From: Leptasterias polaris | Lineage: Eukaryota; Echinodermata; Asteroidea; Forcipulatida; Asteriidae | Direction: 5' to 3' | Assembly (NCBI GenBank): GCA_037783415.1 | Contig: JAZGTN010000015.1 | Coordinates: 2,294,001-2,358,000, forward strand | Length of the DNA stretch: 64,000 nucleotides | Part shown: positions 1,629-31,600 of the stretch, in pieces | How positions within the stretch are numbered: the first letter of the stretch is position 1 | How the letters are laid out: each line of letters begins with the position of its first letter | Program-made: the position numbers and the translations under genes | Notes under the pieces: model-generated | Databases searched by the model: none | The model's input: only the letters and a program-made list of their open reading frames with translations | Told to the model about the DNA's origin: nothing

Positions 1629-4600
1629 ATGGCTGACGCCACAGCACGCTCGTTGCAATACGAGTACAAAGCGGTGAGTAATTCAGACATTTTAAGCTGG
1701 ACTTTTGCAAAAGTTTTAGTGTTTTTCCACACTTTAAGGGTTACTCGTATTATCGTATAATTACTAACTTGATACGAACTGTAAATACCTACAAAAAGTA
1801 ATGAAATAATTTGCTAAGAAACTTGGTTGGTAAGTTCGGCAACAAAATGGAATGCATGCAGTTGCACTGTTGCACTGTTGCACTGTTGCACTATAGACTA
1901 GAGCAAGGACCAAGTTTGGTCAACTCGACCCAGACAGCAGAATGGGGAAATTTGAGATTATCATAAATTGTTGTTATTATTGGTTAAAGGGTAATCTAAA
2001 ACTATTATTATTAGTGGTAGTGCCAGTAGCAGTCTGTAGGTTACCTCCGAATACTGACCTAATTAACTGTTACAATCATGCTCCCCCATAAATCTTTTTT
2101 CTTTCCCTTTTTTGGGGGGGGGGGCGGGGATTGGGGATTGGGACAGATGGGGGGGGGATTGTTTGGATTGCTTTTGCTGTAAACAATTTCGAAGCCGACT
2201 ACCATGTTTCTCAAATACAAAAACATAATATTTTTGTGAAGAAAAGACACCTTTTTTGATAAAAAGTGGCTAAACTGCTAAAGTCTAGGACAAAAAAAGT
2301 AAGTAGTGTTTTACTTTTAGATTTAAACTTTAAATGGGAAAATTTGTTCTTGTAAAATCATTTTAATTATAGCATTGCAATACTGACAAGGAGATGTTCT
2401 TCTTGATCTTGAATCAGAATTAATTTTTTGTTAGCGCTTGTGGGTTATGTAAATTTTAATTCACTTTTACAGAATTCCAATCTTGTACTTCAAGTCGATC
2501 GTTCGTTGATCGAGCGCCGTGGTCGCGATGAAGCCACAGGTGAGGTCATGTCCCTTGTGGGCAAATTTGAAGGAAGTAAGATGGGTGACAGAGCTCAAAG
2601 AACAAAACCGCCGATGCAAGAAGAGAGAAAGATTAAGTAAGTCGGGATTTAGTTTTGAAAGAATTTTTTGAGCAAGTGCCAAACTTGATTATTTCATCCA
2701 GGGCTTGAATTTGGGGTAACATTTTTTCTTGTAGCTCAAAATTGTTTACCGGACCAGAATTGATTTTACAAGACCAGATTCTTAATCGGAAAGAACTTTC
2801 TATAAAGATTAACATTAGGCCTACATGTTAACTTTTTATTTGACCAAGCACTAAGGGAAAATTTATCTTAGTCTTATGGGTGAGTGTAGTTTGATACTCA
2901 ACATAATTGAAAAATACAAAGTCAACAATTGAACATCTTTTTTTTTTTACTTAAAGATATTTACACAGAGAGATATTATTTAATTGAAAAACACTAAACA
3001 GCCAGACTTGTTGGTTATTGTTAATAAACTCTTCTGCTAAGATTTTATGTTGCCTTTATTAGTTTTACTGTTATTTTATATTTGTTGCTTCAACAGAACA
3101 TAAATGCTGTCGATGAACATTCTTTGATATTTTTTATATTCACAGGCGACAGAAGCGTGACGATGCCCGCTACGATATGAACAAGTTCAAAGGTCAAACT
3201 TTACTGTCTCAGGGCATAGAGGACATGGTTGGGATTTACTACAGACCAAAGACTCAAGAAACCAGAAATACATACGAGGCCTTGCTGAGTTTCATACAGG
3301 CGGCCATTGGTGATCAGGTAAGAGTGCTCGGAGGTCAAAGTTCAAGACATTTGTTTTTTTCTTTACAAATATTGAGAGGTCTTCCTACTCCGAATCCAAC
3401 CGGACCAGTCAGCTTGTCGTTTCAATAGTCTTCTATCTTTTTCACTTGTTAATGTTTATACTTTGTATAAACTAGTTTATTAATTGTACTGTACTAGCTA
3501 GCGAGACCACCTCAGGTGTTTTAACTGGCATTTGGCTAGTGGACCACTGTTAAGGGAGCCTGTAATCCCCACCCTGTCTGTGTTGGTGTGTATCACTGTC
3601 TATATCCACCCTCTATCTTGGCGTCTCTGTGTGTATCAGTCCACAGTGGATGTATGAGTAATCCCCACCCTGTCTGTATGGGTGTGTATCACTGTTTGTA
3701 TCCACCCTCTATCTTGGCGTCTCTGTGTGTATCAGTACACAGTTGGTACGTATTATTGGAGGAAGATTAATCGATGCTGAAAAGCCTTCGGTGCCGGGGC
3801 CTATCACTGCCCCACTGCCATCCTCTAACAGCATTACAAGAGCTTGAGACCTTGTCAGTCAAGAGTGGAAACTCAATCCAGAAGGTTAAAGTAATGGTTA
3901 TATTCTAAGCTTACCCTTTTTTCTATGTTTCCCATATCATTGTAGCTCTGTTTCTGGCTCATGTTATGCACAAGTTGCGGGCCAGCTCACGAAAAAAATC
4001 ACAACTTTTTACTTGAGATCAAATTCACAAAAATCATAAAGATAAAAACCATTTAGAATGCCCCAGATTGCACAGTAAAGCTTTAAAAACCAAAGATAAA
4101 CACCAAGTAAGAAACATTTCGAGGACCTCGTTTTAATTTCAGCATGCTCAAAGGCCAAACTTAAAGAATTGGGGTCCAGAATGCCCCACATCGAGGAGAA
4201 CTAAAGGCTCTTTCCAAACAATGGTTTAGGGTCCCTCTGAGGGTATGTCTGCGGGGCCGTTTGACGTTGGAAACACCTTGCAAAGTGTGCACTGTTTTAA
4301 ATACTGATGTAGAAGCTGGAGCCCAAACCGCGGTTTGGAAAAGGCCCTGATTTCTTGATGTATGGTGATATTTATACACAAATGAATCGAAAACAAAATT
4401 GACTTCGTGTTTACAACCTTTAACGAGCCTGCTTAATTCTTCTTGCTTTCTAGCCGCGAGATATCCTATGCGGTGCTGCAGACGAGGTATTAGCAACACT
4501 CAAGAATGAGCACAGCAAGAACAAGGACAAGAAGAAGGAACTAGAGCTCCTGTTGGGGTCCTTGGCTGAGGAAAGATTTGCTCTGCTTGTCAATCTGGGA

Positions 4601-28600: not shown

Positions 28601-31600
28601 GCTGCTCAAATTGAAAATATTGCTTAACAAATTGCAAAAGTTAGCAGGAAAGTCACAAATGGTACATGTGACATGGTATTTTGGCTGGTAACCTTATTCT
28701 AGCTAGCAAAATTGTTATGTGCTTAGTAAATTTTTAATTCCTGCTCGACTTACTCCGTCTACATGAAAATAAATATTGATTTCATTCATAGCAACATTTA
28801 TTTCCAAATTCCTCAATCAACATGAATACACGTAAGCAAAGTGATACAAGCATTATTTTAGGAATTGGGGGCACAGCCAAATAAGCACAGCTTGTGTTAG
28901 ATTTGAATTGAATTGCCTATAGTTTTAACATTAAAACAAAGTGACACAACCATGCATGATCTGTGAGGTGTGTACATGGTTTTAAATGGTGACACAGTGG
29001 GTTTTTCATTTTAACAGAAAGTAATATGATTTTAAATGTTGAATTTCAGTTTTTTGGGGAGATCATCTTGTTATCATCTCCAATCCATATCTTATTTATC
29101 CTCCTAATCTTATCCGTCCCCCCCTACATCAGGAGTAACCCATCGTCATCTGTCGGATCACCTCTCCGAGTTGGTGGAGAACACCCTTCAGGACCTCCAG
29201 CAATCCAAGTGTGTCAGCATCGAGGACGAGATGGACATCTCTCCGCTCAATCTCGGCATGATCGCCGCTTACTACTACATCAACTACACCACCATTGAGC
29301 TCTTCAGTATGTCGCTCAATAACAAGACCAAGATCAAGGGATTAATTGAGATTATCTCCTCGGCGGCGGAGTACGAGCAGATCCCTATCAGACATCATGA
29401 AGACTCAGTTATGAAGCAGGTAAGCAGATTAACTGTTTGAGATCAGGAGGGAAATTTTTACATTGACTGTATTTTTCAGAACTTGTATTTTCTGATAGTT
29501 GATTGTTAAAGAAAAGTTATTATGAACATTGTTTGTACAGTTACCCCAACCCTGCCTGTGTGGGTATCCCCAAGCTGTCTGTGTGGGTGTGTATCACTGT
29601 CTGTATCACCCTGTCTGTGGGTGTGTATCACTGTCTATATCCTGTCTGTGTGGTTGTGTATCACTGTCTATATCCACCCTCTTTCTTGGCGTCTCTGTGT
29701 GTATCAGTCCACAGTGGATGTATGAGTAATCCCCACCCTGTCTGTATGGGTGTGTATCACTGTTTGTATCCACCCTCTATATCCACCCTCTATCTTGGCG
29801 TCTCTGTGTGTATCAGTACACAGTTGGTACGTATTATTGGAGGAAGATTAATCGATGCTGAAAAGCCTTCGGTGCCGGGGCCTATCACTGCCCCACTGCC
29901 ATCCTCTAACAGCATTACAAGACCATGTGTAGGACCCTGTCACTTTGAAAGACTTTTAACCCACACGGCATCCCTGTTGACTCCTAATATGCCAAGATAT
30001 TCTTTGTATGATTTACAGCTTGCCAGCAGAGTTCCCAACAAGCTCGCTAATGCTCGCTTCAACGACCCTCATGTGAAGACCAACTTGCTGGTCCAGGCCC
30101 ATCTTGGTCGGATGCAGCTATCGGCCGAGCTCCAGTCGGATACAGAAGAGATCCTTGGCAAGGTGAGTGTCAAATCTATGACGTCTCATAGTTTGAAGCT
30201 TATCAGGTTTATCCTGATGCTTAAATTTCTATGAAGTTACATTTCATTGCAAATCTGACAAACTGGCGGTTAGGCATATACACCAGCGTAGCTTAGTCGT
30301 CACTTTGTAAGGGATCGTCTCAAAAGTTGGGCTCGTTCTAGGTACAAAGGAACATGCTCATAGGTATACGCCCCCAGTCCAGTGAAATGCCAGAATGTTC
30401 TGCTGGACCCTGACATTGTGCGGGAACATTTTTACACAAGAGAATTACGCAGTGGTATTTTGAACCGGTCCATGTATGCCTGCTGAGCCAACGTTCGAAT
30501 CGTTATGAGTTTTGAGACACTCCCTAAGATTTCCAACAATTGTTGTGAATTCACAAGTGTGCTAGATCTGACCGTTTGGTAAAACTGTGATACGAACTTG
30601 TTGATTTGAGCAAATTGTATGTATTTACAAGTGTGCAAGATACGACCTTTTGTGGAGTCTGAGATTCAACCTTGTTGGGCTGACATGACCATACTATCTT
30701 CTTGTATTTGACAGGCGCTGAGGTTGATCCAAGCTTGCGTTGATGTCCTCTCTAGTAACGGCTGGTTGTCACCGGCGTTGGCAGCGATGGAGTTGGCTCA
30801 GATGGTGACTCAAGCCATGTGGAACAAAGACTCCTACTTGAAGCAGCTTCCTCACTTCACGTCAGATCTCATCAAGAACTGCACTGATAAGGTATTTAAG
30901 GCTATGTCATAAATTGGCAGCTATAGCTACGGCTACGGCTAGATTTCGTGTTGATGTATAGTACGTCCTGAGCAACACCCTTAGTAACAGTCTTAGCCAG
31001 AGCTGTAGCCACTATTTCTGATACGACTTAAAACTGGGCAATGGGCTCATCTATACACAAACTAGTGTATCGGGTTGAAATGAAATCTCTTTTTTAGGAG
31101 AGCCTTAACATTTTTCTACTCGCTTCTCATCTTCTCTGATTATCTGTGTAGACTTTTACTTGGCGTCTCTGTGTGTATTAGTCCACAGTGGATGTTTGAG
31201 TGATCCCCACCCTGTCTATGGGGTTCTGTATCACTGTCTATATCCACCCTCTATCTTGGCGTCTCTGTGTGTATCACTCCACAGTTGATGTATGAGTGAT
31301 CCCCACCCTGTCTGTGTGGGTGTGTATCACTGTTTGTATCCACCCTCTATCTTGGCGTCTCTGTGCGTATCAGTACACAGTTGATGTATGAGTGATCCCT
31401 ACCCTGTCTGTGGGGTTGTGTATCACTGTCTATATCCAGCCTCTATCTTGGCGTCTCTGTGTGTATCAGTACACAGTTTGTACGTATTATTGGAGGTAGA
31501 TTAATTGATGCTGAAAAGCCTTCGGTGCCGGGGCCTATCACTGCCCCACTGCCATCCTCTAACAGCATTACAGTTACCTCCCAGGTTTATCTCGTCCGAT

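Follow-up and report, generated by a model that had tools for sequence, protein, structure and literature searches.

Do the introns of SNRNP200, a gene of the spliceosome, house a whole set of small nucleolar RNAs (snoRNAs) in a sea star, and how would so many related copies have come to lie in one gene? The question is raised by a stretch of Leptasterias polaris DNA of 64,000 nucleotides (nt; contig JAZGTN010000015.1, positions 2,294,001 to 2,358,000; hereafter the window), in which an earlier note, made from the letters alone, had placed 14 snoRNA copies of three families. We confirm that SNRNP200 carries 14 intronic snoRNA-like elements of three families. Their interpretation as snoRNAs is supported by sequence evidence of three kinds: the elements are built like box C/D and H/ACA RNAs, no close copies were found elsewhere in the genome, and two of the three families pair with 18S ribosomal RNA better than with any of 500 shuffled versions.

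The host is a complete gene:

1629..33616 (stop codon included), + strand: SNRNP200 (Brr2, U5 200 kDa helicase), host gene with 41 coding exons and 40 introns

The model, built from the sequence, joins 41 exons over 1629-33613 into one open frame of 2149 amino acids, with GT-AG borders in all 40 introns. From end to end the protein matches Asterias rubens SNRNP200 at 98.7% identity; identity to sea urchin proteins is 86-87%. When intron numbers were recomputed on this model, those of the earlier note agreed for all 14 elements, each of which lies on the sense strand of the gene. The C/D copies occupy introns 8, 9, 14, 22 and 24, the H/ACA family 1 copies introns 3, 4, 13, 36 and 38, and the H/ACA family 2 copies introns 16, 19, 21 and 25. 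Under random placement weighted by intron length the one-per-intron layout has P = 0.042, which is a modest value, and the copies are not independent.

The box C/D family consists of five copies:

7250..7321, + strand: box C/D copy, intron 8 (C box 7256, D box end 7316)
8424..8494, + strand: box C/D copy, intron 9 (C box 8430, D box end 8489)
11869..11940, + strand: box C/D copy, intron 14 (C box 11875, D box end 11935), used as genome query
19408..19477, + strand: box C/D copy, intron 22 (C box 19413, D box end 19473), 60-nt flanks 8-38% alike to the others
20956..21025, + strand: box C/D copy, intron 24 (C box 20961, D box end 21021), 60-nt flanks 8-43% alike to the others

A scan required a C box RTGATGA, a CTGA D box at a distance of 45-120 nt downstream and a terminal stem with four or more Watson-Crick pairs. 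On the plus strand (window 1-33700) it returned exactly these five copies, with terminal stems of 4-5 base pairs (bp). The same scan of the minus strand (1600-33700) returned zero elements, leaving the gene region without further C/D elements on either strand. All five copies have intact boxes, an intact terminal stem and an intact D′ guide, and their D guides are identical in sequence.

H/ACA family 1 is SNORA57 (RF00191), also named U99; every copy exceeds the Rfam gathering score of 40 bits:

3706..3841, + strand: SNORA57 copy, intron 3 (Rfam 50.0 bits)
4822..4957, + strand: SNORA57 copy, intron 4 (Rfam 50.0 bits)
11102..11237, + strand: SNORA57 copy, intron 13 (Rfam 50.6 bits)
29787..29922, + strand: SNORA57 copy, intron 36 (Rfam 50.0 bits)
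31440..31575, + strand: SNORA57 copy, intron 38 (Rfam 47.4 bits)

Tandem 96-nt units, each made of the 5′ flank and a truncated 5′ portion of the snoRNA, stand upstream of SNORA57 copies at 3562-3705, 29566-29786 and 31150-31439. The DNA search of the genome (described below) picked out four truncated pieces:

3598..3647 (C15:2297598-2297647), + strand: truncated SNORA57 5′ repeat upstream of the intron 3 copy
29666..29715 (C15:2323666-2323715), + strand: truncated SNORA57 5′ repeat, intron 36
31236..31287 (C15:2325236-2325287), + strand: truncated SNORA57 5′ repeat, intron 38
31337..31383 (C15:2325337-2325383), + strand: truncated SNORA57 5′ repeat, intron 38

The claim that each snoRNA is alone in its intron is limited to complete copies, because these truncated repeats precede SNORA57 copies; a fragment amounting to flank only is also present in intron 19.

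The second H/ACA family has four copies:

13661..13794, + strand: SNORA51-like copy, intron 16 (34.8 bits, below cut-off)
16246..16379, + strand: SNORA51-like copy, intron 19 (39.9 bits, below cut-off)
18439..18572, + strand: SNORA51-like copy, intron 21 (39.9 bits, below cut-off)
21505..21636, + strand: SNORA51-like copy, intron 25 (35.3 bits, below cut-off), the most diverged, with a core 89-90% identical

All nine H/ACA copies fold into two hairpins with a hinge and a tail, the intron 25 copy being weak at the apex of its second hairpin, and all nine have an H box and an ACA box. The hinge of family 2 reads AGATCA in three copies and AGATTA in one; the ACA tail is present in all four. This family resembles SNORA51 in its H/ACA architecture and in part by covariance, the match looking closest in the 5′ hairpin when two alignments were judged by eye.

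Two further observations concern the introns of this family. In intron 19, a second SNORA51-like 5′ flank at 15798-15869 is followed, on to about 15940, by a short hairpin and a hinge-like GGAGGTAGATC (by eye), and this fragment is possibly a decayed fifth copy. The intron 21 copy is bordered on both sides, at 18031-18311 and 18801-19082, by a repeat some 280 bp long (89-94% alike).

The assembly (629.7 Mb in 334 contigs) was searched with one copy per family as a DNA query; the counts are lower bounds and refer to similar DNA only, and diverged relatives may exist elsewhere. The C/D query gave five matches, the SNORA57 query five full and four partial matches and the SNORA51-like query four matches, all of them in SNRNP200 and on its sense strand. 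Copies scattered over the genome in both orientations, which the earlier note had named as an outcome that would refute it, are thus not what was found. Rejection of the folds by covariance models, another such outcome, was found for no copy of SNORA57; for the other two families the answer is qualified, because SNORA51 scores miss the cut-off and Rfam offers no match for the C/D copies.

Two of the guides have candidate targets in the 18S RNA of the species itself. The D′ guide of the C/D family pairs over 12 of 12 nt at A1624; no shuffled 18S of 500 equalled this match, the best reaching 10 nt. We take A1624 to be the equivalent of human 18S A1678, judging by the human sequence around that site. 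The chicken counterpart is A1633 (PMC2653536). The D′ guide is predicted to direct methylation at A1624, a prediction that the pairing supports.

The 3′ pocket of SNORA57 forms 8 + 7 pairs at U996, with a score of 15 that none of 500 shuffled 18S sequences equalled. The site is the counterpart of 18S 1045/1046, and guide and target have changed together, a comparison made in part with human 18S. This supports the prediction that the pocket guides modification at U996/U997. That the 3′ pocket has guide activity is known (PMC8522698). The matched change of guide and 18S may serve as comparative evidence that this recently recognised activity is old.

Several results weigh against reading all 14 elements as snoRNAs with ribosomal targets. 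To the restricted reach of the DNA search given above are added the following. No C/D model of Rfam matched the C/D family at E values up to 5. Under relaxed thresholds the four copies of family 2 matched SNORA51 (RF00432) at 34.8-39.9 bits and missed its cut-off of 50; the family is therefore described here as a SNORA51-like H/ACA RNA and not as a filed member. Its pockets gave no target on the species' own 18S, their scores being reached in 343 and 359 of 500 shuffles. For the 3′ pocket of SNORA57 the margin is small, the best shuffle scoring 14.2, and narrower register scans from which the 15-pair register was omitted were reached by 27 of 100 and 8 of 200 shuffles. The score of its 5′ pocket on 18S was reached by 429 of 500 shuffles in a scan that covered pockets other than the non-canonical three-nucleotide one; by eye, the left guide could reach a conserved CAAGA. 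The D guide of the C/D family gave no target on 18S, where its 6-nt run was reached by 182 of 500 shuffles, and on 5.8S no run longer than 3 nt. The search for ribosomal targets covered 18S and 5.8S; the 28S stretch of the fetched ribosomal DNA consists of N. Viral contigs taken as an outside reference held no U5, and their sole 18S match, which had none of the other 18S motifs sought, was not used.

An alternative target for the D guide is U5 small nuclear RNA, which would couple the gene of the U5 helicase to modification of its own ribonucleoprotein. The idea is attractive because the host encodes that helicase; moreover, the D guide is identical in all five copies and is complementary to human U5 at its 5′ end. 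The genome has 47 U5 matches, of which 12 were read and 35 were left unread. The required site, TGGTTTCTC, is absent from both strands in all 12 loci read; at that position TGGTTTCAC is found in two of the 12 and greater divergence in the other ten. U5 is thus ruled out as the target for these 12 of 47 loci, and we regard the U5 reading as extremely improbable. As a side observation, at least two clearly different U5 variants occur among the loci read, and a variant with a changed 5′ stem is present on contigs C44 and C258, on C44 in a large array.

The earlier note had set conserved boxes, terminal stems and guides against flanks that diverge in several copies. Conservation of the cores is borne out, identity being 89-100% for all pairs within every family. 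Divergence of the flanks is likewise real, with the amendment that it is uneven. In introns 22 and 24 the C/D cores are 91-96% identical to the other copies and the 60-nt flanks 8-43% alike; a weak alignment (152 nt at 74%) still joins introns 24 and 9, and the flanks of introns 8, 9 and 14 can be aligned to a varying extent. The SNORA51-like elements in introns 16, 19 and 21 align over 443-623 nt at 90-93%, with hundreds of flanking bases in common, and the copy in intron 25 has only about 13-22 nt of common flank per side. In SNORA57, at least 39 nt of 5′ flank are common to all ten pairs, and on the 3′ side the similarity breaks off 0-8 nt after the ACA box in nine of the ten, the exception being introns 3 and 36, where it continues for about 20 nt; cores are 97-100% identical and 3′ flanks 16-47% alike.

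Most of this pattern of cores and flanks is accounted for by duplication within the gene, with selection then acting on the RNA. Could the copies instead be repeats derived from snoRNAs and be mostly pseudogenes, with one or two functional members per family and the rest recent duplicates that have not yet decayed? The long common flanks of the SNORA51-like copies in introns 16, 19 and 21 fit such a history, in which identity could stem from recent duplication, and the truncated SNORA57 repeats demonstrate that non-functional pieces do arise in SNRNP200. The C/D cores of introns 22 and 24 and the SNORA57 cores speak against it, both having kept their identity despite diverged flanks, as do the boxes, stems and D′ guides found intact in every C/D copy. 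We consider the pseudogene explanation unlikely, if still worth bearing in mind.

The shape of the SNORA57 alignments, with common 5′ flanks and an end near the ACA box, suggests another route: reinsertion of RNA intermediates into the same gene, and not DNA duplication, would have given rise to these copies and to the C/D copies in introns 22 and 24, which are nearly bare. The latter two indeed have little beyond the mature RNA in common with most copies. Against this route, no A-tail was seen by inspection and no clear target-site duplication was present; copies would be expected across the genome, and the C/D and SNORA57 DNA queries found none elsewhere. The weak alignment of introns 24 and 9 suggests decay of flanks, and homogenisation of the 96-nt 5′ repeat can yield the SNORA57 pattern. 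RNA intermediates are in our judgement a doubtful source of these copies. Flanking words in common were no better than random in the C/D copies and the SNORA51-like copy of intron 25, for which a random control was made, the one exception being a 6-nt word at intron 14, with a rate of 0.03 in the random control; the SNORA57 copies, outside that control, had longest words of 4-6 nt. A snoRNA retroposon (snoRT) with both an A-tail and a target-site duplication was also considered and rejected, neither feature being supported.

Duplication within the gene under selection on the RNA is our strongly preferred account. A bolder proposal would join function and origin: SNRNP200 would be the sole genomic source of two guides to conserved 18S sites, making ribosome modification dependent on transcription and splicing of a spliceosomal helicase gene, and the H/ACA copies may have spread within the gene via RNA intermediates extended at the 5′ end and matured at the 3′ end. 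Such intermediates would explain why SNORA57 copies have a common 5′ flank and nearly no common 3′ flank. Taken as a whole we hold this proposal to be quite improbable.

Other features were noted in the window. Within the host gene, an interspersed repeat of 56-120 nt (73-90% alike) occurs at 4045, 8240, 14528 and 17267 (introns 3, 9, 17 and 20), and a 23-bp tandem repeat of four copies at 5033-5124 in intron 4. Inverted repeats in both orientations, some with CCCAATTTCAT-like ends, lie at 28156-28344, 28587-28735 and 32077-32168 and are perhaps, by eye, small DNA transposons. Just upstream of SNRNP200 there is a histone 3′ stem-loop above the Rfam cut-off (1070-1115, + strand, 36.6 bits), and a match below the cut-off lies at 37014-37062 (- strand). 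In the remaining window (34-64 kb) none of six weak Rfam matches up to E = 1 was a snoRNA. By eye, the open frame at 38730-41567 (- strand) resembles a WD-repeat protein and that at 49224-49595 (+ strand) a ZDHHC-type membrane protein.

How does SNRNP200 compare with known hosts? In chicken, U14 copies lie in introns 5, 6 and 8 of HSPA8, copies of one snoRNA family in introns 6, 7 and 10 of PABPC4, and copies of one family in introns 1-4 of the expressed sequence tag BU281079; paralogous snoRNAs in several introns of one host are there attributed to intragenic duplication (PMC2653536). The sea star gene is like these hosts in having paralogous snoRNAs in different introns. The tables of that study have at most four isoforms of one family per host, and by our own count the most snoRNAs in one host is 10, in the gas5-like mRNA CR387333 (PMC2653536). 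SNRNP200 differs from them in having five, five and four copies of three families, and in carrying both classes. Mammalian SNORD115/116 arrays are far larger, in a host that is non-coding.

Splicing factors are found among the chicken hosts as well, SF3B3 with HBII-82 in introns 3 and 6 and PRPF39 with a snoRNA in intron 10 (PMC2653536). SNRNP200 resembles them as a splicing-factor gene with intronic snoRNAs; unlike SNRNP200, they have one family each, in one or two copies. Human C/D families tend to one host and H/ACA families are usually distributed over several (PMC8178906), a tendency from which the nine H/ACA copies of two families in a single sea star gene depart. At the level of the RNA, the sea star SNORA57 copies are like SNORA57 in passing the Rfam cut-off and in a 3′ pocket that pairs with the 1045/1046 counterpart, and unlike it in that the scan gave no support for pairing of the 5′ pocket to the 1004 region and in that five copies lie in SNRNP200. 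The C/D family, if A1624 does correspond to human A1678, would have its 18S site in common with an already described snoRNA; it differs in its host gene and in having no Rfam match.

The earlier note knew of no description of such a host. Among titles and abstract openings of the open-licence literature we found no report of SNRNP200 (ASCC3L1) as a snoRNA host, and a search on starfish gave no title on snoRNA host genes; the arrangement itself is known. SNRNP200 is an unusually loaded case of a familiar arrangement and not a new kind of thing: an echinoderm host with more snoRNAs than any host in those chicken tables, of both classes and with each family repeated, which would link a spliceosomal gene with two conserved sites of 18S.

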